This document shows, piece by piece, positions 3,809 to 55,594 of a stretch of DNA of 64,000 nt. The position numbers and the translations under genes were made by a program. The notes beneath the pieces were generated by a model, which was given only the letters and a program-made list of their open reading frames with translations, was not told where the DNA came from and ran no database searches. The stretch's first letter is position 1. Each line of letters begins with the position of its first letter. Source of the DNA: Micavibrio aeruginosavorus ARL-13 (GTDB lineage Bacteria; Pseudomonadota; Alphaproteobacteria; Micavibrionales; Micavibrionaceae); the NCBI RefSeq assembly GCF_000226315.1, contig NC_016026.1, positions 1 to 64,000 of the forward strand, given 5' to 3'.

Positions 3809-5065
3809 ATGAACCTGCAAGAACTGAAAACACGGTCCCCGGCCGAATTGCTCGCGTTTGCGGAGGAGTTGGGTCTCGATAACTGCAACACCATGCGCAA
3901 ACAGGACATGATGTTTGCCATTTTGAAACAGCTGGCCGAGGAAGGGGTGCCCATCGCCGGGGCGGGGGTTTTGGAAGTGCTGCAGGACGGGTTCGGGTTC
4001 CTGCGTTCCCCGGAAGAAAACTATTTGCCGGGCCCGGACGATATTTACGTTTCCCCCTCGCAAGTGCGCCGTTTTGGCCTGCGGACCGGGGATATTGTTG
4101 AGGGCGAAATTCGCGCCCCGAAAGATTCCGAACGCTACTTCGCCCTTCTCAAGGTCGGCTCGATCAACGGAGAAGCCCCGGAAAAGATCCGCCACCGCAT
4201 CAACTTCGACAACCTGACCCCGCTGTATCCGGAACGCAAAATCAAGCTGGAGCTGGCGGACCCGACGAAAAAGGGCATGTCCCAGCGTGTGATCGAACTG
4301 GTCAGCCCGCTGGGCTTCGGCCAGCGGGCGTTGATCGTCGCTCCGCCGCGGACCGGTAAAACCGTTTTGATGCAGGACATCGCCCATTCCATTGCCACCA
4401 ACCACCCGGATGCGTATTTGATCGTTCTGTTGATCGACGAACGCCCGGAAGAAGTGACGGACATGGCCCGGAGCGTACGCGGCGAGGTTATTTCCTCCAC
4501 CTTCGACGAACCGGCGGCCCGCCACGTTCAGGTGGCCGAAATGGTCATGGAAAAGGCCAAGCGCCTGGTTGAACATAAACGTGACGTGATCATTCTGCTG
4601 GACTCCATCACCCGCCTGGCCCGGGCGTACAACACCGTTGTGCCATCATCCGGTAAAGTTTTGACCGGTGGTGTGGACGCCAACGCCCTGCAGCGTCCGA
4701 AACGCTTCTTCGGTGCGGCCCGTAACATTGAACAGGGCGGTTCGTTGACCATTATCGCCACGGCCCTGATCGAAACCGGGTCCCGTATGGACGAGGTTAT
4801 TTTCGAAGAATTCAAAGGCACCGGTAACAGCGAAATCGTTCTGGACCGCAAGATTTCCGACAAGCGCGTCTTCCCGGCCATCGACATTCAGAAATCCGGT
4901 ACACGGAAAGAAGAATTGCTGGTCGACAAGGCGACATTGTCCAAAATGTGGGTTCTGCGCCGTATCCTCAACCCGATGGGCACCACCGATGCGGTGGAGT
5001 TCCTGATCGACAAGATGCGCGACACGAAATCAAACGACGATTTCTTCCAGGCGATGAACCAGTAG
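3809..5065 (+). CDS. rho: Transcription termination factor Rho
   Basis: Hexameric RNA-dependent ATPase helicase that ends transcription at rut sites. Its 418 residues match the standard bacterial length. Visible parts are the N-terminal Rho-N helices ([20 protein letters not shown]), the cold-shock-like RNA-binding domain with the [22 protein letters not shown] stretch split over residues near 50-75, the Walker A loop APPRTGKT at 178-185, [13 protein letters not shown], and the Q/R-loop region [10 protein letters not shown]. The start follows AAGGTG. The gene is monocistronic: own promoter at 3471 and a strong terminator after the stop. Confidence 0.98.
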
Positions 5066-5093
5066 AAATTTTTTCATGCAGACCAATTGTGAA

Positions 5094-5123
5094 AACGCCC
5101 CGGCATATTCGGGGCGTTTTTTT
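5094..5123 (+). terminator. Intrinsic terminator of rho
   Basis: AACGCCCC (5094-5101) pairs perfectly with GGGGCGTT (5111-5118), 9-base loop, then an uninterrupted T run to 5123. Confidence 0.88.
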
Positions 5124-5425
5124 GTCCGCGTGTTTTGTGCTGTACGGTAAGTGCGGGCGCCGGGCCGCACATTAGGATGACACACTCTTGCCACAGGGCG
5201 GGTTAGATAAAATTATCCATTGTTTTTAATAAGTTACCAATCAATTTCGAAACGAAAGACATGGACGGGAAAGCGTTATAAGCCTTAGGATTAAAGAAGG
5301 TAGCGTATCTTTTCTTTCATCGCACAGGGTCGTTTTTTGCGCGGACTGGTTTCAGTCCGATGCGATCGGCTGTGCCTTTTTCAATGGTGGGTATCATGTC
5401 TGTCATTCTTTCCCGTGGGCGTATC

Positions 5426-5878
5426 ATGCCCAAAAAAAACACATCCAAAAGAACAGCCCTGGCCGCGTTGGCGGCTGTCATGATCTTGGCCCCGGTTACG
5501 CCGGCGCGGGCCTTTGAAACCAGTTCCCCGACCAACACGGAAGCGGCGGCGATTGTGCCTTTTTCCCTGAAGTTGCCGTTGCCGGAGGCGGATGGGTGCC
5601 TGCCCTTATTGCACAAATCGACGGGCGAAAACCCGGCCTATGCCATGGATCAAACGCGTCGGATTCAGGGCGAATCCGCATCGGTTTCGATTGTTCTGGG
5701 CGTGCGTTTTGCGCTGGGCCCGGATATCAAGCGCCATCCGTCGCGCCGCGATGATGCGGATGATGATGTGGCCTTTGGCGCGTGGGCGGTGCGCGATGAT
5801 GGCGTCGGCAATTCCCAGGCGCTGGCCATGTCGGAATATCGCCGTTGCCGCGCACAGCTGCAGGATGATCGGTATTGA
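5426..5878 (+). CDS. Hypothetical secreted protein
   Basis: A 150-residue protein with a classical Sec signal peptide: a basic start (MPKKNTSKR), a hydrophobic core ALAALAAVMILAPV and a cleavage region PARA|F near residue 29. The mature part has two cysteines that could form a disulphide and an acidic DDADDDV patch. No family recognised. An in-frame ATG at 5396 has a better purine stretch (GGTGGG) and would add 10 residues, so the start is uncertain. It is convergent with the minus-strand small membrane protein array, 12 bases apart. The 330 bases upstream hold the rho terminator and otherwise nothing I can identify. Confidence 0.55.
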   Translation: MPKKNTSKRTALAALAAVMILAPVTPARAFETSSPTNTEAAAIVPFSLKLPLPEADGCLPLLHKSTGENPAYAMDQTRRIQGESASVSIVLGVRFALGPDIKRHPSRRDDADDDVAFGAWAVRDDGVGNSQALAMSEYRRCRAQLQDDRY

Positions 5879-5890
5879 GGGCCGGATCTG

Positions 5891-6508
5891 TTAAACGGGC
5901 CCACCCAGTGTGGCGGTGATTTTGGCTTTTAATGTTGCGTGTTCATCCCGCAGGGTGACAAGCGCCTGTTTGTGGTCTTTGTGGCGGCGATATGCGCCGG
6001 GCAGGCCACAGAACGCGGCCAGCATCAAAAACCCCACAAACCACGTCGTCGGATCGCGTACGATGCGATCTTTTGCCCGCACCTGGTCCCGCACAGGATC
6101 ATAATCGTTCAGGCATCTCAGGGCCGCGTCACCGTCCAACAGCGTTGTTTTTTCGGCGGATGTGGTGTTGCGCTCCACGCAAGCCTTGTCCCTGGCGGTC
6201 AAAATGATGTGTTTTTGCAGGGTGTTATACGCGGCATAATCGCGGGCGCTGGCGGTAAAAGCGGCGGCAAACGTGCCGTTGGCATTCTGGGTGTTTTCGT
6301 GCGCGGCTTTTTCGATGGTTCCCTTTATGCTCATGGCAAGGGCGAAGGGCAGGATCGCCGTGATGAAGGCAAACCGTTGAAAATCGTCGCGCAGGGCGCT
6401 GCGACGATTCAGTTCAGTGCGCAATTCCCGCATCCGTGCATAATCAGCGCGCAGGCCGTCAATGCTCGTGTGTTCTGCGGATGGTGTCTCGATCGGCGTA
6501 TCGGGCAT
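5891..6508 (-). CDS. Two-helix membrane protein with coiled coil (array member)
   Basis: A 205-residue protein of unknown function and the last gene of a four-gene minus-strand unit. The order of parts is an N-terminal charged helix (LRADYARMRELRTELNRR) with coiled-coil character, a first membrane helix (FAFITAILPFALAMS, residues about 47-61), a large extracytoplasmic loop of about 95 residues with two cysteines, a second membrane helix (WFVGFLMLAAFCGLPGA) and a basic C-terminal coil. This matches the shape of its upstream neighbours but with a much longer loop. It starts 11 bases after the previous gene ends. Membrane topology is inferred by eye. Confidence 0.7.
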   Translation of the reverse strand: MPDTPIETPSAEHTSIDGLRADYARMRELRTELNRRSALRDDFQRFAFITAILPFALAMSIKGTIEKAAHENTQNANGTFAAAFTASARDYAAYNTLQKHIILTARDKACVERNTTSAEKTTLLDGDAALRCLNDYDPVRDQVRAKDRIVRDPTTWFVGFLMLAAFCGLPGAYRRHKDHKQALVTLRDEHATLKAKITATLGGPV

Positions 6509-6519
6509 TGTGCGGCTTT

Positions 6520-6939
6520 CTATCGGCGGGGAACAATTGGCTTTGGCTTAAAAATCTCGACGGGCAGGTCGAGCATATCGGCTTTTTCCTTCATATTGCT
6601 CTGATAGGCGGCCTCGCCATTCTTTACCAGCGCGCGCGTTTTTTGTTGTTTCACAAACAGCGCCACAGCCGCGAAGGCCAGCACCAGCGTCATGCCGCCA
6701 AAGGCGGGAACGGCGGGTGTTTCGGTCTCCGCGTCCTTCGCCGCATTATACACAAACAGCGTGTTGGCACATGCGGCACCCGTAACAACCCCCGCGATGG
6801 GGGTCATGCGGCTATAAAGGGCGAGTGCGCGCACCCGCGTTTCATGCTGGCGGATTTGCGCATTCAGCGTATCCAGCCGATCCATCGCGGCGGAGAAATC
6901 AATGTTTGTGTCTGGGCCGGTGTCGCGGTCGTTTTGCAT
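6520..6939 (-). CDS. Two-helix membrane protein, paralogue of its upstream neighbour
   Basis: A 139-residue protein. The N-terminal part DRLDTLNAQIRQHE aligns with DRLSTLNAQLENHR in the gene just upstream. Both continue with an AG-rich first membrane helix, a short polar loop containing a Y-x-A segment, a second helix (LVLAFAAVALFV) and a C-terminal helix ending in PKP. The two are clearly tandem paralogues. The start is preceded by GGAA six bases upstream, and only 3 bases separate it from the upstream gene. Predicted inner-membrane hairpin with both ends cytoplasmic. No named family recognised. Confidence 0.72.
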   Translation of the reverse strand: MQNDRDTGPDTNIDFSAAMDRLDTLNAQIRQHETRVRALALYSRMTPIAGVVTGAACANTLFVYNAAKDAETETPAVPAFGGMTLVLAFAAVALFVKQQKTRALVKNGEAAYQSNMKEKADMLDLPVEIFKPKPIVPRR

Positions 6940-6942
6940 GGT

Positions 6943-7284
6943 CTATTCCGGTTTGGGGTACAGTTTGCGGACCAGCATTTCGCGTTCCGCAATCACATCC
7001 ACCAGCGCGGCGGATTGTTTTTGAATGGCCCTGTTTTGCAGGAATGCGCGCTTGGCCAGAACCCCCGTCGCCAGCGCAAAAACCAGCGCCAGGCCCGCCA
7101 GATCGCCCGGGGCGTCGTGCCGATCGGACAGGCTGGTCGCGCCATATAATCCACCGCAGGCCAGTGTGCTGAGGCCCGTGGCCCCGGCGGTCACGCTGGT
7201 CAGGTGATGGCGCTGCAGAAGGCTTCTGTGGTTTTCCAGCTGCGCGTTTAGCGTGGACAGGCGGTCGTGATCGGTGCTGGTCAT
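6943..7284 (-). CDS. Two-helix membrane protein, array member
   Basis: A 113-residue protein, the shortest full member of the array. A helical N-terminus with heptad-like leucines (LSTLNAQLENHRSLL) leads to a first membrane helix (VTAGATGLSTLACGGLYGA), a short loop, a second helix (LAGLALVFALATGVLA) and a basic C-terminal helix ending YPKPE. Its ATG directly follows the stop of the upstream gene (TAA then ATG), with AGGA seven bases before it, so translation is coupled. Function unknown; possible roles are membrane scaffold or small accessory subunit, but nothing in the sequence fixes this. Confidence 0.72.
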   Translation of the reverse strand: MTSTDHDRLSTLNAQLENHRSLLQRHHLTSVTAGATGLSTLACGGLYGATSLSDRHDAPGDLAGLALVFALATGVLAKRAFLQNRAIQKQSAALVDVIAEREMLVRKLYPKPE

Positions 7285-7722
7285 TTAAAAATCCTGATGC
7301 GTGTGGGCCTTGATGCGGGCGTGCAGAATGCGGTGACGATCCACGTTGGCGTGATGCGTGGGCATGGCGGTGTCGACTTCTTGTCGCAGGGTTTTGGCCT
7401 TGCGCAGTAAAACGGTTGCGCACAGCGCGAAGACGAGGCTGATCGACCCCGTGACAGCCACAAACCCATCTTTGGTGTCGTTGGCGGTCAGGTTGGTGTG
7501 AACCGTTTCGCTGTAAAAAGGGGCGGCCCCGGCTGCGGCGGTGAGGGCGCAGACTGCGCCCGCAACAATTCCGTTGGTTTTGCATTCAAAACGGCGGCGT
7601 TCCAGTTGCGCAAGCGTTGTAAACCCTTTGCGCAGGGATTTGATTTCGGCCAGATCGCGCTGCAAATCCTGCATCGCGGCGGCGTGTGCCGGGTTGGTAT
7701 AGGCGGGTGGTCCCTGTTCCAT
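7285..7722 (-). CDS. Two-helix membrane protein, array member
   Basis: A 145-residue protein and first gene of the four-gene unit 7722 to 5891. The N-terminal 45 residues form a charged helix with coiled-coil character (LQRDLAEIKSLRKG). Two membrane helices follow (IVAGAVCALTAAAGAA; FVAVTGSISLVFALCATVLL) flanking a loop with an SETVHTN segment, then a basic C-terminal helix rich in His. It lies behind a long hairpin (7756-7793) that separates it from the next upstream array gene. No family recognised. Confidence 0.7.
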   Translation of the reverse strand: MEQGPPAYTNPAHAAAMQDLQRDLAEIKSLRKGFTTLAQLERRRFECKTNGIVAGAVCALTAAAGAAPFYSETVHTNLTANDTKDGFVAVTGSISLVFALCATVLLRKAKTLRQEVDTAMPTHHANVDRHRILHARIKAHTHQDF

Positions 7723-7755
7723 GGTCTCTGTTCTCTTGCTTTTGATGATGTGCGA

Positions 7756-7793
7756 GACGGCCCGTACCCTAGGGCTGGAGGGTGCGGGCCGTC
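7756..7793. repeat. Long inverted repeat between two array units
   Basis: GACGGCCCGTACCCT (7756-7770) pairs with AGGGTGCGGGCCGTC (7779-7793), 15 pairs with one G-T wobble and an 8-base loop. Neither side is followed by a T run, so it is not a textbook Rho-independent terminator. It sits between the 92-residue gene and the 145-residue gene on the minus strand and could attenuate, protect an mRNA end, or be a small repeat. Confidence 0.6.
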
Positions 7794-7819
7794 AAGGGAA
7801 AGGGTTATATTAGAAAACC

Positions 7820-8098
7820 CTATAATTCCGGCTTGGGCAACGCCTTCTGGCGGAGCAGGCCGGGCAGGGGTTCGCCATCATACAGCGGATTGTTGCGGAT
7901 GGCCTTGCAAGCCGCGTGATGGGGGCGAATGCGGTTCCAGAAAATACCAACGCCTTTGTAGAGCGCCAGGCTCGACCCGAAAATGCACAGCAGCCAGGCG
8001 GTGCTCAGATCCTTGCCGTCTAGTGTGTCCAGCGACGGATTGCGCGGCGGTTGTTCTGTGCGCGGTTTGGCATAGTGGTGATAAGGTTTTTTCGCCAT
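7820..8098 (-). CDS. Small membrane protein with N-N-x-x-Y-D C-terminal motif
   Basis: A 92-residue protein with one clear membrane segment (TAWLLCIFGSSLALYKGVGIF, about residues 33-53). The last 28 residues, which include RNNPLYDGEPLPG, resemble the C-terminus of the 46-residue protein two genes upstream (VNNLEYDAQPLPG). The start follows the stop of the previous gene by 3 bases, with GGA overlapping that stop, so translation is probably coupled. Function unknown. Confidence 0.62.
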   Translation of the reverse strand: MAKKPYHHYAKPRTEQPPRNPSLDTLDGKDLSTAWLLCIFGSSLALYKGVGIFWNRIRPHHAACKAIRNNPLYDGEPLPGLLRQKALPKPEL

Positions 8099-8101
8099 GG
8101 C

Positions 8102-8566
8102 TTAATCCAGTTTCGGGGCGTTGTTGTTTTGAGCATCGCGTTGTGCGATGAGGGCGGCCAGGTCTTTTTTGCTGTCCTTCCGCATCATTCCAATGAGGGC
8201 TGTTGCGAGAGCGGCAGCAACAAACAAAAGCCCGGATTCCGCGTAATGCGGCCCCGGTTCCGCACCCTGTTTCTGAACATTCGCAGGGGGTGTGGTCAGC
8301 GTTTCATAGGCGCTGTATAACGCCGCGCCCAGCAAGCTGGTCGGTAGGGTGATTGATACAATGTTCGCGGTAACCATGGCCTTTTTCTCACCGGCGATCC
8401 GTGACTCCAGTGTGCGCAAATCCTCTTCATCCGTGGGCGGAAGCGTGACGATGATGTTGTCATCGTTCCATGTTGGGATGGTTTTTTCATCGGTTTGAAC
8501 CTGCGCCACATGATCCGCAAAAGCGGTGCGCGGGCGCGGCGGCGGTGTACGTGAATCAGCAACCAT
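8102..8566 (-). CDS. Two-helix membrane protein, array member
   Basis: A 154-residue protein. A disordered, acidic N-terminus (residues 1-50) leads into a charged helix (LRTLESRIAGEKKA), a first membrane helix (ITLPTSLLGAALYSAYETL), a loop rich in Pro and Gly, a second membrane helix (GLLFVAAALATALIGMM) and a charged C-terminal coil (KKDLAALIAQRD). It has the same arrangement as the genes at 6520-7722. AAGGA precedes the ATG by 9 bases and lies in the end of the upstream microprotein gene. Unknown function. Confidence 0.68.
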   Translation of the reverse strand: MVADSRTPPPRPRTAFADHVAQVQTDEKTIPTWNDDNIIVTLPPTDEEDLRTLESRIAGEKKAMVTANIVSITLPTSLLGAALYSAYETLTTPPANVQKQGAEPGPHYAESGLLFVAAALATALIGMMRKDSKKDLAALIAQRDAQNNNAPKLD

Positions 8567-8571
8567 GGCGT

Positions 8572-8712
8572 TTAATCCTTGTCGAGTTTCAGGGCGAGCT
8601 GTTTGATTTTGAACGGGCCGGGCAATGGCTGGGCGTCATATTCCAGGTTGTTGACGATCAGATCGCGTTGTGGCGTTGCGTGGTATCGACGCGGCGCTTC
8701 CGGGTTGCTCAT
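8572..8712 (-). CDS. 46-residue microprotein, first gene of the array
   Basis: ATG at 8710-8712 opens a 46-codon frame to TAA at 8572-8574. The product begins MSNPEAPRRYHATPQRD and contains VNNLEYDAQPLPG followed by a basic, Leu-rich tail. The second half resembles the C-terminus of the 92-residue protein at 7820-8098, which argues that it is translated. It ends 5 bases before the next gene and carries that gene's ribosome binding site. A plausible promoter lies 40-70 bases upstream. No membrane helix. Confidence 0.55.
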   Translation of the reverse strand: MSNPEAPRRYHATPQRDLIVNNLEYDAQPLPGPFKIKQLALKLDKD

Positions 8713-8749
8713 GTCTTTGCCCTATAAATTCTTATGAAAATAAGAGGGC

Positions 8750-8779
8750 ACTCTAGGGCTGGTGGCCCCCATGAGTCAA
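8750..8779 (-). promoter_or_regulatory. Candidate promoter of the small membrane protein array
   Basis: On the minus strand TTGACT (8779-8774) is followed after 18 bases by TAGAGT (8755-8750). The -35 is good, the -10 matches four of six positions. It points into the microprotein and following genes. Confidence 0.4.
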
Positions 8780-8823
8780 TAATTTTTCATAATATTACAT
8801 TTGTATGGATTTTTCTTTTTAAA

Positions 8824-10584
8824 TCAACGGTTAATCACGTTGACCCAATCCGGGGTTCCAGTGCCCAGGGCCACGGTTAAGCCCAGAATAACGGCCAGAG
8901 CGGCAAAGGTGCAGCCCCAGGCGGCGAGCCCGGTCTTGCCGGCGCGGGGCATGAATTTTTTGCGTTTGTCCGGTGGGATCATGGGGCGGACCAGATCGAG
9001 GATGCGGGCGCGGGTGACAAAGCGGGCCGCATGGGTCAGGCCATAGCCGAACAATCCCGCCCACGCGCAATCGACCACGGCCGAGACGAACAAGGGGGCG
9101 GGGACCGGAGGCATCGCGGCCCAGAAGGTTCCGCGCCAGCCCCCCATAAACCACAGCGCGTAAAACCCGCCCGTGAGGGCCGTGCCCGCCGTCAGCGTCA
9201 TGATGCGTGACAAACGCGTCAGGCGGGCCAGCCCCTGTCCGGACAGAGTGATCAGCCGTTCAATCGCATCATGGTCAATTCCGGCGGTGTAGCGTTTGCG
9301 CACCATCGCGAAGGCCTTTTTCGGCGGCAACGTGGCGGCCGCGAGCAGGGATGTGGCGATGATTTTTGTGCGGGCGGATTCGTGCAGGTTGTTTTTGACG
9401 CTGAACCCGTTTGCGGCCTGCAACAGACGCTCGACGCCCGGTGTGATCAGCCGTTCAAGGAAGGGCGGGAAATGCAGCAATTCGCCGTTAAATCCCAGCA
9501 TCTGCCCCGACAAAATTTCATCGCCCAGCTTGAAGCGGATCAGGCCCCACGGCAGGCGGGCGTGATAGGGGATGATGACCTCGCCCCGGATATGCTCGGC
9601 GGTGCGCAGTTCTTTCTGCCAGGCTTGTTGTTCGTTCCCCTGCAGCACAAACAATTCGGCGTGCCCGTCAGAGACCAACGTGGGGCCGTATTCATCAATC
9701 ATCGGCGGCAGAGCGACGGGCAGGTCATACAGGTCATAGGCAAATTTGGTCAGGGCATCAAAGCTGACAAAGGCAATATCGCTGATGCGGCCAGACGCGT
9801 TGCATTGGGCGCATCCGACGCGGCCTGTGCCGGTGCAGGGGCGGCATTTCATCTGCCCTGTCTGGTGGCAGGCCTCGCACCCGATGACGCGCTTGCCGTG
9901 GCAGCGGTTGCAGGGCATCGGCTGGTTTGTGTTTTGATTGCGAATGGTGCCGTTGCCGTGACAGGCCGGGCAATTCAGCGTGCGTTGCCCGCGACAGCGA
10001 TGGCACGGCAAACGCCCGTCCCCGTTGCACGGACCGCACGCCAGCTTGCCGGTTCCGCTGCAGGGATTGCAGCTGTTATGATGCACAAAACTTTTGTTCA
10101 GGCGGTCGAGTTTGATGACCAGATTATTGACGGCAAACCCCTTGTCCGCGCGTTTTTCCAACACGTCGGTGGCGTAATTCACGATGACACTGTTCTTTGT
10201 GGTTTTTTCCACCTCGGTTTGAATCCGCATATGAAGATCAGCGGTGGAGCCCACCACTTCGGCATTGCCCTGTTTTCCGGGCACGGATTTGTGCGCGATC
10301 TGGTGACGGATTTCGAACAAAGTGCGGGCGTCAAAATTGATGATCGCCCCGTCAAACCCTTCGAGCATGACGTCATCAGCCTTGGCCCCGTTGCCGTGGA
10401 CCAGCGCCTTCATCCGCTTGGTGGCCAGGGCCAGCAAATGCGCATCCACCGGGTCGATCTGCAACGGCTCGCCTTCTGGTCCGATCATCAGGTCCAGCGT
10501 CGCTTGGGTAAAAAGCGGGCGTCCCGTTTGTGGATCAACAGGGCCGGTGTAGGCAGAGGGGTCGTCGGGCGGTAATCCGGTCAT
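8824..10584 (-). CDS. Membrane protein with double-length DnaJ-type zinc-finger domain
   Basis: A 586-residue protein of no named family that I know. Residues 1-170 are a soluble N-terminal region without a J domain (no HPD). Residues 172-266 contain eight CxxC pairs, several of the DnaJ form CxxCxGxG, which is twice the four pairs of canonical DnaJ; this predicts about four zinc ions. A beta-rich region (270-400) follows, then three or four hydrophobic segments at the C-terminus (for example LTAGTALTGGFYALWFMGG and AWGCTFAALAVILGLTVAL). DnaJ-type zinc fingers bind unfolded protein or act in thiol chemistry, so a membrane-bound chaperone-like role is inference. It starts 9 bases after the dienelactone hydrolase gene and precedes the small membrane protein array by 111 bases. 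Confidence 0.82.
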   Translation of the reverse strand: MTGLPPDDPSAYTGPVDPQTGRPLFTQATLDLMIGPEGEPLQIDPVDAHLLALATKRMKALVHGNGAKADDVMLEGFDGAIINFDARTLFEIRHQIAHKSVPGKQGNAEVVGSTADLHMRIQTEVEKTTKNSVIVNYATDVLEKRADKGFAVNNLVIKLDRLNKSFVHHNSCNPCSGTGKLACGPCNGDGRLPCHRCRGQRTLNCPACHGNGTIRNQNTNQPMPCNRCHGKRVIGCEACHQTGQMKCRPCTGTGRVGCAQCNASGRISDIAFVSFDALTKFAYDLYDLPVALPPMIDEYGPTLVSDGHAELFVLQGNEQQAWQKELRTAEHIRGEVIIPYHARLPWGLIRFKLGDEILSGQMLGFNGELLHFPPFLERLITPGVERLLQAANGFSVKNNLHESARTKIIATSLLAAATLPPKKAFAMVRKRYTAGIDHDAIERLITLSGQGLARLTRLSRIMTLTAGTALTGGFYALWFMGGWRGTFWAAMPPVPAPLFVSAVVDCAWAGLFGYGLTHAARFVTRARILDLVRPMIPPDKRKKFMPRAGKTGLAAWGCTFAALAVILGLTVALGTGTPDWVNVINR

Positions 10585-10593
10585 GCGGATGGC

Positions 10594-11304
10594 TTACGCC
10601 GCTGCCGATTTCTTCAATGCTTTTTGCAGGAAATCGCGCGTGCGACCATTGGCCAGATCGGCGGACGGGCCGTCGAAATGTTCGCCATTGATGCGGGCAA
10701 AGGCATGGTTCACCCCCGGATAGGAATGAATGGTAATCGCCGGGTTGGATGACAAGGTGGATTTGATTTTCGCTTGTGCATCCTTGCTGACGAATTTGTC
10801 CTCTTCGGCAATGTGCATCAAAAGCGGGGTTTTAATGGCTTTGCCTTCGGCCAGCATGTCATCCAGCCCAACGCCGTAATAGGATACGGACACATCCACT
10901 TTGCTGCGCGCGGCCATCAGGTAGGCCAGCTTGCCGCCGAGGCAATACCCGACGCATCCAACGGACCCCGTGGAATGGGCGTGACCGCGCATGGTGTGCA
11001 GCGTGGCGCGCAAATCCTCAACACCCATATCGACATCGAAACGGTTATACAGGTCAAACGCCTTTTTCCATTCCGCTTCGGTTTTATCGGTGATATCGAC
11101 GCCCGGTTCCAGCCGCCAGAACAGGTCCGGGCACACGGCCAGATAACCCATTTCCGCCATCGCGTCGCAATGGGCGCGCATATCGGCATTCACGCCGAAA
11201 ATCTCTTGAATCATAATGACGACCGGGGCCGGGGTCACGGCCGGGGTGGCGATATAGGCGGTAAAGGACTGACCGTCTTTGGTCGGAATGGTGATGGTGG
11301 ACAT
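10594..11304 (-). CDS. Dienelactone hydrolase family protein
   Basis: A 236-residue alpha/beta hydrolase. The Cys-His-Asp triad of the dienelactone hydrolase family is visible: Cys121 in GYCLGG, Asp169 in EEDKF and His200 in GVNHAF, plus the Glu34 (IQEIFG) that activates the Cys. No signal peptide, so cytoplasmic. The family opens lactone rings such as dienelactone, but many members have unknown substrates, and no aromatic degradation genes are nearby. The start at the ATG of MSTITIP was chosen because AGAGG lies upstream and homology begins there; a longer in-frame extension to 11439 is unlikely. Upstream of the zinc-finger gene by 9 bases, so possibly co-transcribed. Confidence 0.9.
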   Translation of the reverse strand: MSTITIPTKDGQSFTAYIATPAVTPAPVVIMIQEIFGVNADMRAHCDAMAEMGYLAVCPDLFWRLEPGVDITDKTEAEWKKAFDLYNRFDVDMGVEDLRATLHTMRGHAHSTGSVGCVGYCLGGKLAYLMAARSKVDVSVSYYGVGLDDMLAEGKAIKTPLLMHIAEEDKFVSKDAQAKIKSTLSSNPAITIHSYPGVNHAFARINGEHFDGPSADLANGRTRDFLQKALKKSAAA

Positions 11305-11472
11305 GGTGGGGCCTCTATTGAAAATGTTTGATTGAAAAACAACACACCCCAAGACGATACAGTGAGATTCATTGGGGGAAAAGGCGGGAATCGGGAAAAG
11401 TTTGCGCCCTCTGGGGTGGGGTGTTATGACATCCCCCATTCATAATTGAAAAATATAGAACAGGAGCGTTTT

Positions 11473-12321
11473 ATGAAGGATTCCGCCCCCAAAACAGAGA
11501 TTGAGCAGTTAAAAGACGCCGTCGCACAGGGCAAAAAGCGGTGCGGACGCCTGCTGGGGTTGAGCTTTGCTTTGGCGGTCGCCGGGACGGCCGGGGTTGT
11601 GTATTACGAGCAGGCCCTCGATACGATGCAGGATGCCAATCACACCCTGAAAAAAGATCTGAGCAAAGCCAACCAGACATCGCTTGATGCTTTGGACAAA
11701 GCCATCGAGGCCATGACGGAGAATATCCATCTGCACCGCGATCTGGCCAAGAGGGATGAGGCAAGCCACGTCGGACAATTGGTTGTGCACGCTGACGCAA
11801 TGGCCAAAGCGTCGATGGCCCTGTGCGAAAAAGAAGGGGCCAAGCGCCGCGTCTTGGAGGACGTATACCACGATACAGCCCGCTTTGTTGAAGGTCTGGG
11901 CGGCTATACTCATCGGCAGATCGTGCCCGTGGCAGAGACATTGTCGCTGGTGCAGACGCTGCAGGAGCATAATATCCGTGTTGTGGAACGCAACCTGCGC
12001 TCGACTGTGAACCCGGTGATGGCGCAATGGTTCAACAGTTCGTCTTATGGCCAGGTTCTGGTGGTGGATGACTTGTTGTTCAGTGATGGGCAGCGTGCCG
12101 TGCGGGCCCTGGTCAATGATGTGCTGACCGGGCGCACCACGGTGCCGTCGGGGCACGTTCTGGCGCTGGTCGCAGAAGACCAAGAGGATTATAAAGCCTA
12201 TCCGGACGGGTACAAACTGCATCGCGTGAGCGCTTCTATTGGGGCGGATAAAGCCATCGTGACCAGTGATGATCTGCCGCCTTATCGCATCAAGATTGCC
12301 GCACACCCATGCCCGCAATAA
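11473..12321 (+). CDS. Membrane-anchored coiled-coil protein
   Basis: A 282-residue protein of unknown function. It has a short cytoplasmic N-terminus, one membrane helix (LLGLSFALAVAGTAGVVYY, about residues 27-45), then about 75 residues of coiled-coil sequence (DTMQDANHTLKKDLSKANQ) and a C-terminal domain of mixed structure. The start is set by AGGAG six bases before the ATG; an upstream TTG at 11446 lacks such a site. The next gene overlaps its 3' end by 13 bases, so the pair is translationally coupled. It is divergent from the dienelactone hydrolase gene. Topology suggests the coiled coil and C-terminal domain face the periplasm. Confidence 0.72.
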   Translation: MKDSAPKTEIEQLKDAVAQGKKRCGRLLGLSFALAVAGTAGVVYYEQALDTMQDANHTLKKDLSKANQTSLDALDKAIEAMTENIHLHRDLAKRDEASHVGQLVVHADAMAKASMALCEKEGAKRRVLEDVYHDTARFVEGLGGYTHRQIVPVAETLSLVQTLQEHNIRVVERNLRSTVNPVMAQWFNSSSYGQVLVVDDLLFSDGQRAVRALVNDVLTGRTTVPSGHVLALVAEDQEDYKAYPDGYKLHRVSASIGADKAIVTSDDLPPYRIKIAAHPCPQ

Positions 12322-12833
12322 CCGTTGCAAAAATAACCAGCCACCTGCGCGAGATGCGGGATTGTCTGTTCTGGGTGATGGGCCGTGACGCGCAGGGCGG
12401 GTTGCGCGCGCGTGCAGTTTGTGCGGAGAGTTTGGCCCTGTACCGCAAACCGGCCTTCATTCGCGCAACGCTGATCGGGGCGGCTGGTGGGGCGATTATG
12501 GGGATGTTTGTGGGTTTTAAGCACACTTATTGGGACCATTGGGGGGCTGGTTTCAGGGCTGATCTGCATGCCGTTGCGGCCAGAACGATGGCGCGGCAAC
12601 AGGCCCCGCACACACCGGCAGAACAACAGCCCGTGGCGCGGCCAGCGTTGACGGATGGTGTGGATCAGACAATCAAAACCGTTCGCGACAATATGCAGAC
12701 CGCCTGGGCCCAGACGCATTTTGCGCGGGCGGCGGGATATGGGGCGATGTCGGCGGCGTTTATGGCGGTTTTAATGGTCCCGGTCGCGGTGACATACCGT
12801 GGACACCGTGCGGATCGCGGGCCACAGCCATAA
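12309..12833 (+). CDS. Two-helix membrane protein coupled to the coiled-coil gene
   Basis: A 174-residue protein with two hydrophobic segments (IRATLIGAAGGAIMGMFVGF and YGAMSAAFMAVLMVPVAVTY), separated by about 85 residues rich in Ala, Gln and Pro. The layout recalls the minus-strand array at 5891-8712, with a longer loop, but I see no clear sequence identity. It starts inside the last codons of the upstream gene, and a terminator follows 43 bases after its stop. Function unknown. Confidence 0.68.
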   Translation: MPAITVAKITSHLREMRDCLFWVMGRDAQGGLRARAVCAESLALYRKPAFIRATLIGAAGGAIMGMFVGFKHTYWDHWGAGFRADLHAVAARTMARQQAPHTPAEQQPVARPALTDGVDQTIKTVRDNMQTAWAQTHFARAAGYGAMSAAFMAVLMVPVAVTYRGHRADRGPQP

Positions 12834-12875
12834 GCAAAAACGGCCTTCCCTTTGCCGGTTTAATGACTATCCTGT

Positions 12876-12909
12876 CAAAGCGGTTCCATCGGGGCCGCTT
12901 TGATTGTTT
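12876..12909 (+). terminator. Intrinsic terminator
   Basis: CAAAGCGG (12876-12883) pairs with CCGCTTTG (12895-12902), followed by ATTGTTTTT. It ends the two-gene membrane protein unit and stands just before the next gene's ribosome binding site. Confidence 0.65.
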
Positions 12910-12925
12910 TTGAAAGGATACGGCC

Positions 12926-13249
12926 ATGAAAGTCGAGTTGGAGATTGAGTGCACGCCGGAAGAAGCCCGCGCGTTTTTTGGGTTGCCCAACATTGCGCCG
13001 ATGCAGGACCGCATGATGAAGGAAATGGAAGACCGTATCCTTGAAAACATCCGCAATCTGGACCCGGAAACATTGGTCAATACATGGATGCCGATGACGA
13101 TCAACAGCTGGAACGAGATGCAGAAAATGTTCTGGTCCCAGATGGGGCAATCCATGCCGAACATGCCCGGCATGCCGGGGTTCGGGACACAATCTGGCAG
13201 TGCCGCCGCCGATGAGGCCAAGGCGAAAAAGCCCGCCAAAGACAAATAA
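12926..13249 (+). CDS. DUF6489-like protein
   Basis: A 107-residue protein starting MKVELEIECTPEEARAFFGLP, which I recognise as the short conserved alphaproteobacterial family DUF6489 (function unknown). The N-terminal strand-helix unit is followed by an amphipathic helix with several Met and Trp residues, and a Lys/Ala-rich tail ending KKPAKDK. The Met-rich PNMPGMPG segment near residue 80 is low complexity. AAAGGA precedes the ATG. It lies 9 bases before mnmE and is probably co-transcribed with it. Confidence 0.72.
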   Translation: MKVELEIECTPEEARAFFGLPNIAPMQDRMMKEMEDRILENIRNLDPETLVNTWMPMTINSWNEMQKMFWSQMGQSMPNMPGMPGFGTQSGSAAADEAKAKKPAKDK

Positions 13250-13258
13250 GAACCTGCC

Positions 13259-14614
13259 ATGACTGCGTCGCATACCGATACGATTTACGCATTGGCCACA
13301 CCCCCGGGGCGGGGTGGGGTGGCGGTTGTGCGTGTATCGGGTGCGGGCGCGCACAAATCCGCTGCCGTCATTGCGGGTGCAAAACCATTGATCCCACGCA
13401 TGACGACCCTGCGCCTTCTGCGTGATCCGCAGCAGGGTGCAGTGATTGATCATGCGATGGTGATTGGGTTTTCAGGCCCCGTCAGTTTCACCGGTGAAGA
13501 TGTGGTGGAATACCATCTGCATGGTGGGCCCGCCGTTGTGCGGGCGATGTTGGGCGCACTAAAAAACCAACCCGGGCACCGCATGGCGGAGCCGGGTGAA
13601 TTTACCCGTCGCGCCTTTGAAAACGGCAAGATGGATTTAACCGCGGCCGAAGCTGTGGCCGATTTGATCCATGCCGAAACGCAGTTACAGGCGCAGCAAG
13701 CGTTGCGCCAGATGGATGGGGCGCTCTCCAGCCTGTATGAGGGCTGGCGCGATCAATTAAAACGGGCCTTGGCGCATCTGGAGGCCGATCTGGATTTCCC
13801 GGATGAAGATTTGCCCGATGGTGTGGCGGAACAAGTAACGCCCGTCATTCTTGATTTGATTGAGGATGTGCAGGCGCATTTGAATGATAACCGCCGCGGC
13901 GAACGCCTGCGCGATGGCATTCATATCGCCGTGATTGGTGCGCCCAATGCGGGCAAATCATCGCTGGTCAATGCGCTGGCCAAACGCGATGTGGCCATTG
14001 TATCGGATCAGGCCGGCACCACCCGTGATGTGATTGAGGTGCATCTGGATCTCAACGGCTATCCGGTTATTCTGGCCGACACGGCGGGCCTGCGCCCCGA
14101 TCAGATCGGCACAAGTGGCGCCGATGCGATTGAGGGCGAGGGCATTCGCCGCGCCCTGCAACGGGCCGAAAGTGCGGATATTCGTATGCTGGTGTTCGAT
14201 GCCACGGATGACACGCTGGATCACCACACGCTGGGCCTGGTCGATGAAAATTGCATCATCGTGGCGAACAAGGCAGACACGGAAGGTTCGCGCCCCGTTG
14301 ATATCACGGGCTATACGGCGATCGACGTATCCGCCCGCACAGGCCAGGGCATGGATGGATTGATCAACGCCATGATTGAGCGGCTGGAGCAGGTGGTGGG
14401 TCGCCGTGAGGCCCCGTCACTAACCCGCGCCCGTCACCGCGATGCGCTGGAACAATGCCGCGGCCATTTGACACGGGCGCTGGCTGCACCTCTGCCAGAA
14501 TTGATGGCAGAGGATGTGCGGCTGGCCTTACGCGCGCTGGGCCGCATCACGGGACGCGTTGATGTCGAGGATTTGCTCGACGTCATTTTCCGCGATTTTT
14601 GTATCGGGAAATAA
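13259..14614 (+). CDS. mnmE: tRNA modification GTPase MnmE
   Basis: With MnmG it forms the complex that installs the (carboxymethyl)aminomethyl group on U34 of several tRNAs. The 451 residues match the family. The order is an N-terminal formyl-THF-binding domain (YALATPPGRGGVAVVRVSG), a helical domain, the inserted G domain with G1 at residues 227-234 (GAPNAGKS), DTAG and NKAD, then the C-terminal helices and the terminal CIGK (448-451) whose Cys is characteristic. The partner MnmG lies 3 kb downstream; in many bacteria the two are closer, and here an MscS gene and several small membrane genes are intercalated. Confidence 0.97.
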   Translation: MTASHTDTIYALATPPGRGGVAVVRVSGAGAHKSAAVIAGAKPLIPRMTTLRLLRDPQQGAVIDHAMVIGFSGPVSFTGEDVVEYHLHGGPAVVRAMLGALKNQPGHRMAEPGEFTRRAFENGKMDLTAAEAVADLIHAETQLQAQQALRQMDGALSSLYEGWRDQLKRALAHLEADLDFPDEDLPDGVAEQVTPVILDLIEDVQAHLNDNRRGERLRDGIHIAVIGAPNAGKSSLVNALAKRDVAIVSDQAGTTRDVIEVHLDLNGYPVILADTAGLRPDQIGTSGADAIEGEGIRRALQRAESADIRMLVFDATDDTLDHHTLGLVDENCIIVANKADTEGSRPVDITGYTAIDVSARTGQGMDGLINAMIERLEQVVGRREAPSLTRARHRDALEQCRGHLTRALAAPLPELMAEDVRLALRALGRITGRVDVEDLLDVIFRDFCIGK

Positions 14615-34998: not shown

Positions 34999-36105
34999 AT
35001 GAAAAATATCCTGATGATGACCGTTGCTGTTGGTGCACTGGCTTTCGCTGCTGCTCCTGCAATGGCACAAGACGGCGGCGTTGATCTGAGCATCGCTGGC
35101 CACATGAAAGGCTACGTAACCTGGAACGACCAAGATGAAGCTGCTGGCCAACCGGACGCTCGCTCGGTTGACATCCTGCGTGAAACCGAAATTCACTTCA
35201 CCGGCGAAACCACGCTGGACAACGGCCTGACCGTTGGTTTCCACACGGAACTGGAAGATGACCTGGGTGATGGCTTTGCTACGGAAGAAAGCTATGCTTA
35301 CTTCGCTGGCAACTGGGGCCGCGTAAACTTCGGTGCTGAAGATGGCGCTGGCTACTTGCTGCAAGTTGCTGCTCCGTCCGCTGACTCGAACGTTGACGGT
35401 ATCCGTCAGTACATCAGCGCGTTCAACACGACCGTTGCTGGCGTTGCTGCTGGTGCAACCGGCGCCCTGGATTATGACATGGCTCCGACCGCAGCTGCTG
35501 ACAAAATCACCTACATTTCCCCGAACTTCAATGGCTTCCAAGCTGGTGTGTCTTACACGCCGGACGTAGAAGATGTTGCTGGTACGGCTCTGGGTTCCCG
35601 CTCCTTGGGCGTGTCCACGGATGACGTGAACGATGCTCTGGGCCAAGCCTATGAAGCCGCTGTTCGTTACGAAGGTAACTTCGACGCGTTCCGTCTGGCC
35701 GTTGGCGCTGGCTATGCTCAAGTTGAAGTTGAGCAAGAAACCGCCGCTTCTGACGACGTTCAAACCTGGAACGTTGGTGCAAACGTTGGCTTCGGCGCGT
35801 TTAACGTTGGTGCAGTATACTTCGACGGCGAAAACACCGCCGGCACGAAAGATGCTGACACAGACGGTTTCGTTGTTGGTGTTGACTACACGACCGGCCC
35901 GTTCGTTATCGGCGCTTCCTACTACAACGCTGACGACATCGACGGTGTTGCTAACGTAGACGCTGAGCGTTATTCCGGTGGCGTAACCTATAACTACGGC
36001 CCGGGCATGTCCTTCCGTGGTTCCGTACACCACGTACAATATGACCAAGTTGGTGGCGACGTAGACGGTACGTCCCTGCTGCTGGGTACGCAAATCAACT
36101 TCTAA
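34999..36105 (+). CDS. Outer-membrane porin 1
   Basis: A 368-residue porin. The signal peptide (MKNILMMTVAVGALAFAAAPAMA|Q) is followed by an acidic, Gly-rich mature protein with alternating hydrophobic residues forming beta strands and ending in Phe, as in 16-stranded trimeric porins (TSLLLGTQINF). It is closely related to porin 2 (37.6 kb end), with the same N-terminal DNGLTVGFHTE and C-terminal YNYGPGMSFRGSVHHV blocks. GGAGG lies 10 bases before the ATG. The codons (many GCT, GTT, CGT) suggest high expression. Leader contains an inverted repeat and a shared motif. Confidence 0.93.
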   Translation: MKNILMMTVAVGALAFAAAPAMAQDGGVDLSIAGHMKGYVTWNDQDEAAGQPDARSVDILRETEIHFTGETTLDNGLTVGFHTELEDDLGDGFATEESYAYFAGNWGRVNFGAEDGAGYLLQVAAPSADSNVDGIRQYISAFNTTVAGVAAGATGALDYDMAPTAAADKITYISPNFNGFQAGVSYTPDVEDVAGTALGSRSLGVSTDDVNDALGQAYEAAVRYEGNFDAFRLAVGAGYAQVEVEQETAASDDVQTWNVGANVGFGAFNVGAVYFDGENTAGTKDADTDGFVVGVDYTTGPFVIGASYYNADDIDGVANVDAERYSGGVTYNYGPGMSFRGSVHHVQYDQVGGDVDGTSLLLGTQINF

Positions 36106-37683: not shown

Positions 37684-37734
37684 GACTATTCCATAGTCAA
37701 AAACTTGATAAATCATGATACATCAAGATATAAT
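37684..37734 (+). promoter_or_regulatory. Promoter and operators of the toxin-antitoxin operon
   Basis: TTGATA (37705-37710), 18 bases, TATAAT (37729-37734). GACTAT-TCC-ATAGTC (37684-37698) is a perfect palindrome just upstream, and CTTGAT-N12-ATCAAG (37704-37727) spans the -35 to spacer. These fit autoregulation by antitoxin or toxin-antitoxin complex. Confidence 0.65.
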
Positions 37735-37765
37735 GGGGGGAGCCAAGGAAAAGGAAAATTGTACC

Positions 37766-37993
37766 ATGACCCAAACCCGTGAAAAATTTGCAACGCAGGT
37801 GGATGCCGTCTTGCTGGCGGATGTGCGTGATCTGGCCCGGGCCGAGGGGCGGCAGTTGCAGGCGCTGGTGGATGAGGCTTTGGCTGATTTGATTGAAAAA
37901 CATCGGAATGCCAAAGCGCGTCCCCATGTCATGGCGGCCTATATGGGCTCGCATGCTCCCTATGCCGGGCTTTATAAAAAGCTGGCTGAATAA
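37766..37993 (+). CDS. Antitoxin of a Doc-type toxin-antitoxin pair
   Basis: A 75-residue protein. The first half (KFATQVDAVLLADVRDLARAEGRQLQALVDEAL) has the ribbon-helix-helix look of DNA-binding antitoxins; the tail (YMGSHAPYAGLYKKLAE) would wrap the toxin. It ends 2 bases before the toxin start. Predicted to repress its own promoter and block the Doc active site. The start has GGAAAA upstream; an earlier ATG at 37715 is less likely as it would lie between the -35 and -10. Confidence 0.8.
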   Translation: MTQTREKFATQVDAVLLADVRDLARAEGRQLQALVDEALADLIEKHRNAKARPHVMAAYMGSHAPYAGLYKKLAE

Positions 37994-37995
37994 TC

Positions 37996-38373
37996 ATGGC
38001 TGATTATTTGACGGTTGCCGACGTGATGGCGATTCACGCGGATCAAATTCTGCGTTATGGCGGTGGCGAAGGTATTCGCGATCCGGGATTGCTTGAAGCG
38101 GCGCTGTTTCGTCCACAAACCGGATATTATGCCGACATCGTCGCCGAAGCGGCGGCGTTGTGGGAGAGTCTGTCTCAAAACCACCCGTTTATTGACGGCA
38201 ACAAGCGAACGGCGTTCGCTTGTACATACACGTTTCTGGTGATCAATGGTTATCGGATGACGGCCAACGGTGATGACATTTATGCCTTTATGATTGACCT
38301 TTACCAACGGGCGGATTTTTCACTCAACCATCTGGATTCATGGTTACGCAAGAACACAGCGGCCATAGATTAG
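37996..38373 (+). CDS. Doc-like (death-on-curing) toxin, Fic superfamily
   Basis: A 125-residue protein with the Fic/Doc motif H63-P-F-I-D-G-N-K-R71 (HxFxxGNKR), the site that phosphorylates or AMPylates target proteins; phage P1 Doc inactivates EF-Tu by phosphorylation. Length and motif fit chromosomal Doc (type II). With the upstream antitoxin it forms a two-gene operon. The yggS-family gene follows 12 bases later, so it may share the transcript. Confidence 0.92.
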   Translation: MADYLTVADVMAIHADQILRYGGGEGIRDPGLLEAALFRPQTGYYADIVAEAAALWESLSQNHPFIDGNKRTAFACTYTFLVINGYRMTANGDDIYAFMIDLYQRADFSLNHLDSWLRKNTAAID

Positions 38374-54340: not shown

Positions 54341-55594
54341 ATGGAACAATATGGTTGGTTTGAATATGAAGATGCTCCTTGGAAAATTCGTAATTTTAAA
54401 AGCGGTCAAGAGCTAATTCTAAAAGACGTAACTTTTCAAAAGCTGCCAGAAGAGTTTTTGAAAAAATGGGCAAGTGATAATCGCGCAAAACTAATACGCG
54501 ATTTGTTCCCGCAGCCCGAATATTTCGAGTATTCGAGCGAACTGGAGTTTTTGTATAAAGATACAGAAATAGAGCAGATCCTGTGTTTCAGTATTAAGTA
54601 CGAAAAGGACAAACATCGCCGTTTTGGTATTACGATTGACTATAATAAAATCTTTGAGACCTCTCCGTCATATGGCTTGTGGCGCCGCATAGATGATTTT
54701 TTTGTAGATGTGGCGCTTTGTTGGCCTGAGGGTGTTTTTGATGAAAGGCCTTTTGGTTTAATCGTGATTGGTGCGTGGTATCAGGGAAAGTGGCGATCAG
54801 ACGTAAAAAGGATTTTTTCAGGGCGGAAGGCTGGTAAGCGGGAGGTTGTTGCCAGCTATCCGATTGTGGAACCGCATTTGGAGCCATTGCATTCACCTGC
54901 ACCACAGCAGTGGACTTACATTGATGTTGCGGAGCCCAAGGCGCAAGCGTCGTTAAAGTTTTGCATTGATGAAACGTATAATATTCCATTTTTTTCGCAA
55001 GATGAACAGCTAGTGGGGTTTCAAGAACGCGTTCCTTATCTTTTGCGTAATGATCAAAAGGCCGCCATTTTTCCCGCGCTGTTGGAGCCAAATTCACACC
55101 GCGGCGAGGATCCCGATGCCCATTTATATTACACTTACGTAGATGAGGATGTGTTCTTTACTTTCCGCAGTTGCTTGGTATATGGGCTCGAATTGTCTGA
55201 TTGCAAAAACTATGGCTTTAGGAAGTTGCCCCCTGATCCCCGGTTTTTTGCGTCGGATGCCCTTGGAGCAATAGGGGATTCCACGTATGTGTCTCGCTTT
55301 GGTTCTTCATGTTTATCTTATTTTGTGTGGAGGCGGGCTTTAAACGCCATTATGGATGCTTGGCCGAATTGGAAGAATAGTATCAATTTTACCGTAGACG
55401 GGATGGCAAGAAAAATAGAGATTGATCCATCTATAAATCTTCCTCCCAACTATGGCAGGCAGGCATATGTCGGAAATTTTGGTCCGACAATCACCCGCGG
55501 GTTTTGTGGGGGAATGGTAAATAACTGGTATTGTTTAAAATTTGAGACGCCAGAAATGTATGAAAATATTAAATTAGTTCGTTTGATAGGATAA
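54341..55594 (+). CDS. A+T-rich orphan gene abutting comM
   Basis: A 417-residue protein with no recognised family. It is rich in aromatic residues (Tyr, Trp, Phe), with no signal peptide and no clear membrane helix; a soluble, probably beta-rich fold. Hand counts of three 60-base lines gave 33, 48 and 47 % G+C against 75 % in one line of the following comM gene, so the gene stands out sharply and its codons are more A/T-ending. This points to recent transfer. It ends 2 bases before the comM ATG. A role in defence or competition is a guess I do not support beyond its composition. Confidence 0.65.
   Translation: MEQYGWFEYEDAPWKIRNFKSGQELILKDVTFQKLPEEFLKKWASDNRAKLIRDLFPQPEYFEYSSELEFLYKDTEIEQILCFSIKYEKDKHRRFGITIDYNKIFETSPSYGLWRRIDDFFVDVALCWPEGVFDERPFGLIVIGAWYQGKWRSDVKRIFSGRKAGKREVVASYPIVEPHLEPLHSPAPQQWTYIDVAEPKAQASLKFCIDETYNIPFFSQDEQLVGFQERVPYLLRNDQKAAIFPALLEPNSHRGEDPDAHLYYTYVDEDVFFTFRSCLVYGLELSDCKNYGFRKLPPDPRFFASDALGAIGDSTYVSRFGSSCLSYFVWRRALNAIMDAWPNWKNSINFTVDGMARKIEIDPSINLPPNYGRQAYVGNFGPTITRGFCGGMVNNWYCLKFETPEMYENIKLVRLIG

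Follow-up and report, generated by a model that had tools for sequence, protein, structure and literature searches.

The first 64,000 bases of the single-contig genome of Micavibrio aeruginosavorus ARL-13 (2,481,983 bp), hereafter the window, contain a minus-strand run of small membrane-protein genes that poses a threefold question: what the proteins are, how the genes came to stand together, and what they might do for their host. Comparison with the genome of a close relative of the same genus (G022, 2,458,610 bases; the sister genome below) shows a two-unit cluster of lineage-specific, predicted membrane proteins whose gene content differs between these two close genomes. The cluster bears signs of tandem duplication, of exchange between neighbouring genes and of in-frame deletion, and we are highly confident of this anatomy and evolutionary history as described in the following sections.

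Anatomy of the cluster and plan of its proteins

Seven genes follow one another on the minus strand from 8712 to 5891, with products of 46, 154, 92, 145, 113, 139 and 205 amino acids (aa). With 157 long open reading frames (ORFs) of the ARL-13 genome as its training set, a hexamer coding model calls all seven (scores 23.9-87.1, threshold 8), and the 205-, 139-, 113-, 145- and 154-aa genes score 59.9-87.1. An initial annotation, made from the letters of the window alone, had described "at least five" adjacent genes, namely these last five; their coordinates and coding status are borne out, and two further genes, of 46 aa (8572-8712) and 92 aa (7820-8098), belong with them. Names beginning with E denote proteins of the sister genome, and A205 is the 205-aa protein of the window. 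The features of the locus are as follows.

8750..8779, minus strand: promoter-like element TTGAC-N12-CCAGCCCTAG, preceding the 46-154-92 unit
8572..8712, minus strand: 46-aa probable remnant, a short N-terminus joined to the last 32 residues of E270, with no membrane helix
8102..8566, minus strand: 154-aa predicted hairpin protein with a 26-aa loop; its N-terminal 47 residues also match E270
7820..8098, minus strand: 92-aa probable remnant with one membrane helix and an in-frame internal deletion relative to E236
7766..7795, minus strand: promoter-like element with identical spacing and the same 10-mer, CCAGCCCTAG, preceding the 145-113-139-205 unit
7285..7722, minus strand: 145-aa predicted hairpin protein with an 18-aa loop, first gene of the second unit
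6943..7284, minus strand: 113-aa predicted hairpin protein with a 17-aa loop and a weakly hydrophobic first helix; no counterpart in the sister
6520..6939, minus strand: 139-aa predicted hairpin protein with a 13-aa loop, a paralogue of the 113- and 145-aa proteins
5891..6508, minus strand: 205-aa predicted hairpin protein with an 88-aa loop holding two cysteines
12309..12833, plus strand: possible outlying member, tentative, with two hydrophobic segments and some similarity to E236

The genes are tightly coupled, with intergenic gaps of 5 and 3 bases in the 46-154-92 unit and of 0, 3 and 11 bases in the 145-113-139-205 unit. The operon proposed in the initial annotation thus stands as far as coupling goes (gaps of 0-11 bases), but not as a single operon, since 97 bases carrying a promoter-like element separate the two units. 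In the 464-kb sample that our scans of the ARL-13 genome covered (for the 10-mer, for two-segment proteins and for the second tandem set described below), the 10-mer occurs on both strands together at only two sites, the two promoter-like elements. The sister keeps it before the 145-aa gene and has an altered form before E270. A generic promoter scan detects the element of the first unit and misses that of the second; between 5300 and 9000 it returns 3 sites, compared with a mean of 1.8 in shuffles.

The proteins had been given a common plan of charged helix, membrane helix, loop, membrane helix and charged helix, which holds, weakly for the 113-aa protein and with a long loop in the 205-aa protein (88 residues versus 13-26). 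At a lenient hydropathy cut-off of 1.2, two hydrophobic segments are found in each of the 205-, 139-, 145- and 154-aa proteins; the 113-aa protein falls short of that cut-off with its first segment (1.12), the 92-aa protein has one segment and the 46-aa protein none. Loop lengths by hydropathy are 13 residues (139), 17 (113), 18 (145), 26 (154) and 88 (205). Lysine plus arginine, pooled over 16 proteins (the array and comparison proteins), amount to 15.3 and 20.9 per 100 residues in the two ends versus 10.9 in the loop, an enrichment of both ends that fits a cytosolic location for them. AlphaFold2 predicts helices at 11-65 and 87-142 in the 145-aa protein, from four aligned window proteins, and mainly helices in the 205-aa protein taken alone; with mean pLDDT values of 54.1 and 54.6, both of low confidence, these models are too weak for a claim about the fold.

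Small two-segment proteins make up 16 of 411 called genes in the 464 kb at a cut-off of 1.35 (24 at 1.2 and 13 at 1.5). A run with four such proteins in six successive same-strand genes is unique to the cluster in that sample at cut-offs of 1.2 and 1.35; at 1.5 the run falls to three. The ORF at 12309-12833 matches E236 with a z score of 5.4 (block shuffles), is missing from the sister with a clean junction, and is called as 151 aa from 12378; because its coding score is weak (12.1), it is kept as a tentative member.

Relatedness within the array and divergence from the sister genome

The initial annotation held that the array had grown by duplication, with the 139-aa (6520-6939) and 113-aa (6943-7284) neighbours clearly aligning. 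They do align, with a z score of 2.9 in block shuffles, where the best 45 of 171 pairs were listed, and with 5.4 when the 113-aa protein is compared with E136, the sister's orthologue of the 139-aa protein; pairwise E-values, computed on a set of 17 sequences, overstate weak pairs. The 139- and 145-aa proteins match with z 4.4, E270 and E236 with z 19.7 (67 bits), and the 154-aa protein and E270 with z 11.0, this last match being confined to the N-terminal 47 residues of the former. Among those best 45 of 171 pairs, the 205-aa protein reaches z 2.6 at most with any non-orthologue. Because of this pattern of pairwise scores, and because the short-loop profile and the long-loop profile fail to match (probability 0.5%), the array is best read as two or more paralogous groups together with one or two proteins left unplaced, and a single family is not demonstrated. 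Growth by duplication can accordingly be retained for the 139/113/145 set and the E270/E236 pair, in part (the N-terminus) for the 154-aa protein, and not for the 205-aa protein.

The neighbourhood from hemE-hemH-hemJ-rho to mnmE is collinear in the two genomes, and within it the sister carries intact counterparts of 270 and 236 aa (E270 and E236) for the 46- and 92-aa genes. Since E270 and E236 are homologous to each other, the long forms are likely ancestral and ARL-13 likely carries internal deletions; the 46- and 92-aa genes look like remnants left after frame-preserving events of this kind. The 113-aa gene is absent from the sister, whose 145-aa gene abuts the 136-aa gene with no gap, and the sister alone has an extra 158-aa gene (E158) at the far end of the array. 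E270 also carries the N-terminal part found in the 154-aa protein (77% DNA identity in a 109-position alignment), which we read as a sign of exchange between neighbours. A horizontal origin of the cluster was considered and rejected; its GC content and coding scores resemble those of the surroundings.

Divergence was gauged on 56 window genes with at least 80 aligned codons and a match in the first 75 kb of the sister, whose identity has a median of 94.45%. At 60.3% and 60.9%, the 139- and 205-aa proteins are the lowest of the 56 except for one gene (34999-36105), whose best sister match is also matched, and better, by another gene; in synonymous differences they rank first and third. The 145-, 92- and 154-aa proteins are 81.4%, 78.3% and 87.7% identical to their counterparts, and the 113-aa gene is one of six called window genes without a match in that 75 kb. 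Ratios of nonsynonymous to synonymous divergence (dN/dS) are 0.264 for the 145-aa gene, 0.28 for the 92-aa gene, 0.274 for the 154-aa gene and 0.125 for the 46-aa gene; those of the 205-aa (0.216) and 139-aa (0.183) genes are rough, as their synonymous sites are heavily changed (dS 1.33 and 1.64). Two neighbours, mnmE and the gene at 8824-10584, have ratios of 0.088 and 0.085. The four intact array genes with a sister counterpart are thus, by this measure, under purifying selection. The gene at 11446-12321, which encodes a single-helix, coiled-coil-like protein, is 72% identical in the sister and faster than most of the window.

Distribution of the array and comparison with other tandem sets

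Two search profiles were used to trace the array, A1 for the short-loop and A2 for the long-loop members, with E-values given per genome. They find array members in two of five genus genomes (E <= 10), and each matches three of the 142 order genomes at E <= 0.01, namely ARL-13, the sister and one further genome. The additional A1 hit lies in genome G071 (E 9.5e-5) and is taken up below. That of A2, in G057 (16 bits, E 0.0059), was taken as chance; it falls in an open frame just downstream of a GcvH-like ORF, where no hairpin gene was seen. In the class sample, in which some large genomes were scored on their best candidates only (e.g. 11 of 24), the single match among 385 genomes at E <= 0.001 is the own genome, and the other 384, which do not include the sister, yielded no array member.

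The initial annotation had proposed looking for the same array beside mnmE or rho in related genomes; this was done, and those relatives in which the neighbourhood is preserved have no array. Twenty other loci of the family around rho, some of which end soon after rho or differ in gene order, contain no array protein matching better than E 0.045, and the ten that have the 8824-10584 neighbour include five that were followed in detail, with a small exported-looking protein or other genes in place of an array. Because neither the profile searches nor the rho loci reveal another carrier, the array is, as far as the searched genomes go, private to ARL-13 and its sister.

The initial remark that no family is known for the proteins is likewise upheld for the six of them that were searched, the 46-aa remnant lying outside the search: none has a match over the curated cut-offs of Pfam or NCBIfam, and PHROGs returns nothing below E 0.1. 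No match came from a phage search with the 145-aa protein or a plasmid search with the 205-aa protein. Among solved structures, the short-loop profile matched none and the long-loop profile only thiolases with E-values no better than 0.29, which were taken as chance. Contig scans with the 154-aa pair and the 145-aa protein found no relative, with the limit that near records may be excluded from them, and an Rfam scan of 5000-13500 gave no match. Among the papers listed on M. aeruginosavorus genomes, none treats the cluster to judge by title and opening of the abstract, although subscription papers could contain an account of it, and the available portion of the ARL-13 genome paper (PMC3189940) does not mention it. 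The cluster proteins resemble no described family in these comparisons and look like a young, home-grown gene family.

Similar plans recur elsewhere, in the following tandem sets.

Genome positions 852,251-853,689 (L098 12251-13689): second tandem set of ARL-13, three proteins (136, 144 and 157 aa), each with two loop cysteines
L086 7561-8972, L135 2588-3766 and L136 2392-3211: small hairpin-like proteins next to nrdB, two or three in tandem, in three genomes of genus g34

Two of the three proteins of the 852-kb set were called with two hydrophobic segments and the third with one. The sister keeps the set with the same gene number at 78-89% identity, compared with 91-98% for nine of the ten flanking genes and 86% for the other. 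In the remaining order genomes it has no convincing match (two weak ones, E 0.022 and 0.063). It resembles the window array in its tandem layout and in the two loop cysteines seen also in A205; it has no significant sequence similarity to that array, whose profiles do not match it. The A1 hit in G071 falls in a set of three genes beside nrdB, of which two other g34 genomes have three and two copies. These proteins are tandem, small and hairpin-like, as in the window array, but begin with a distinct, conserved N-terminus of the type YDSAVNYFN. Profile-profile comparison with the array gives E 0.00027 over 44 columns, covering one helix only, at a probability of 41%; the g34 profile finds nothing in the ARL-13 genome at E <= 0.1 and weak matches in five genomes (E 0.017 to 0.087). 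The recurring theme, to judge from these comparisons, is the plan and not the sequence: tandem hairpins private to each lineage.

Exactly two loop cysteines are found in eight of nine long-loop proteins (A205, E204, E158, E236, E270 and the three of the 852-kb set, the g34 proteins being outside this count), several of the nine being orthologues or paralogues and hence not independent; the exception is the 12309 ORF, with none. All seven short-loop proteins have zero. The chance of exactly two is 0.12-0.18 per protein.

Several neighbouring genes and other parts of the window deserve mention in their own right. The 586-aa protein encoded at 8824-10584 combines C-terminal membrane helices with repeated CxxC motifs resembling the DnaJ zinc domain (17.1 bits against a cut-off of 32.7), and has no Pfam or NCBIfam match over cut-off; its gene is kept between rho and mnmE in ten of the twenty other family loci. 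Downstream of rho, 5360-5878 encodes a small exported-looking protein with a conserved C-terminal motif that recurs beside rho in several relatives. Two genes at 37733-38373 lack a counterpart in the part of the sister used for comparison; by eye, the second resembles a Doc/Fic-type toxin, preceded by its small partner. A 417-aa ORF at 54341-55594, also without a match in that region, lies in the lowest-GC 2-kb stretch of the window. The NCBI taxonomy dump places Micavibrio in Bdellovibrionota, and PMC3189940 describes the mobile elements of ARL-13 as closest to those of other alphaproteobacteria.

What the hairpin proteins may do

Membrane immunity and superinfection-exclusion proteins, such as T4 Imm, are small, inner-membrane, often strain-specific and fast-changing, and the array proteins appear to share these traits. 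Because turnover comparable to that of the cluster is typical of exclusion and immunity loci, a guard of the cell envelope is, in our view, the most likely dedicated function. Each intact protein would be a hairpin in the inner membrane whose two ends lie in the cytosol, where its helices may pair with those of neighbouring cluster proteins. The loop would face the periplasm and, in the long members, a disulfide could close it into a small head. Least surely, heads or pairs might each block or sense one envelope attacker, for which injected phage DNA, a toxin of kin or prey and the predator's own secreted lytic factors are candidates. Such a role would account for the turnover, for copies particular to one lineage and for ends that are mixed between neighbours. 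The mechanism is nonetheless put forward tentatively, and we consider it rather doubtful as it stands.

Several observations weigh against it. In four of the five intact proteins the loop has 13-26 residues and lacks cysteines, which makes it a poor candidate for a recognition head. The case for the topology is weaker in the long loops, whose positive charge is not low (13 in that of A205). Neither in the cluster nor beside the array was a toxin, phage or defence gene recognised, in contrast to known immunity and exclusion proteins, and PADLOC gives 0 matches at E <= 1 with the six array proteins searched or with the 586-aa neighbour. Every pair and region tested has a dN/dS ratio below 1, so that diversifying selection is not demonstrated, and the high synonymous divergence could reflect old paralogues retained differently in each strain. 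Similar ratios are found in the flanking genes 5360-5878 (0.246) and 11446-12321 (0.195), and weak constraint is therefore not special to the array, whose proteins are, by these ratios, kept under a constraint weaker than that on nearby enzymes and not weaker than that on these two small or coiled-coil neighbours. Nor are the 852-kb and g34 sets, on the comparisons above, demonstrably homologous to the window array.

The same facts are explained at least as well by orphan genes in flux, that is, by young, short-lived membrane genes of little importance and without a dedicated function as a system, since hairpins arise easily and are tolerated. This reading, a real possibility that falls short of an even chance, is favoured by the two of seven genes that look like deletion remnants, by the restriction of the set to two close genomes, by the different sets in other lineages and elsewhere in the ARL-13 genome, and by array ratios (0.125-0.28) that are 1.4 to 3.3 times those of mnmE and 8824-10584. 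It sits less easily with dN/dS at or below 0.28 in all six comparable genes, remnants included, with reading frames that are open and tightly coupled, and with a common promoter-like element and spacing in both units, of which the sister keeps the second while the first is changed.

A membrane scaffold or ring of coiled-coil hairpins, the model offered in the initial annotation, appears improbable. Co-transcribed paralogues often co-assemble, the low-confidence AlphaFold2 models contain long continuous helices, and the heptad index of the N-terminal helices, a crude measure without a control, is 0.53-0.63 in the five intact window proteins and 0.33 in the sister's 154-aa orthologue. A structural role would predict conservation across the family, but ten of the twenty other family loci have the 8824-10584 gene and no array gene, and gene content varies even between two close genomes.

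It is very improbable that the proteins are predator effectors that insert into prey membranes in the manner of chlamydial Inc proteins. M. aeruginosavorus preys obligately and feeds in the attached state (PMC3189940), and the four short-loop proteins fit the hydrophobic-hairpin definition of PMC3048545, with two membrane helices and a loop of less than 30 residues (here 13-26). Inc proteins further resemble the array in coiled-coil enrichment, lineage-restricted sequences and some clustered genes (PMC3048545). They differ in belonging to another phylum, in an average length of 279 residues versus 113-154 aa for the short-loop proteins, which have no Pfam match, and in being type III secreted by definition; the comparison fails on secretion because PMC3189940 reports no evidence for a type III or IV system in ARL-13, a negative taken from the literature, no search aimed at such a system having been made here. 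Some hairpin proteins, moreover, stay with the bacteria (PMC3048545). The plan also fits ordinary inner-membrane proteins, and the 205-aa protein, with its 88-residue loop, falls outside the loop limit within which the 113-, 139-, 145- and 154-aa proteins lie.

Rv2743c is described as a membrane anchor for a PspA-like coiled-coil stress protein. A similar anchoring role was suggested by weak matches of two of seven short-loop rows to Pfam Rv2743c (PF25587) at E <= 1; the best of them (E 0.0014, 18.7 bits), which involves the membrane part in the 145-aa protein, lies below the curated cut-off of 27.7. The idea is mostly refuted and can practically be set aside, because PspA/IM30 was found in none of 19 genomes (the own and 18 relatives) by a search whose control was positive in 9 of 14 named genomes.

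In a wider view, it is conceivable, and to our mind quite unlikely, that predatory alphaproteobacteria of this family keep several independent, fast-turning hairpin arrays with interchangeable ends and cysteine-closed periplasmic heads, which would amount to a new modular system of envelope interaction. If this is true, such arrays would guard the predator or act at the junction with its prey, and would be rebuilt in each lineage. Few genes have been assigned to epibiotic predation, and according to PMC3189940 hypothetical genes make up the majority of those highly expressed in the attack phase. Between two close genomes, the cluster itself captures how small membrane proteins duplicate, exchange parts and decay in frame. 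As a strain-variable locus with two natural deletion forms, it offers a concrete target, open to direct comparison of its ARL-13 and sister forms.

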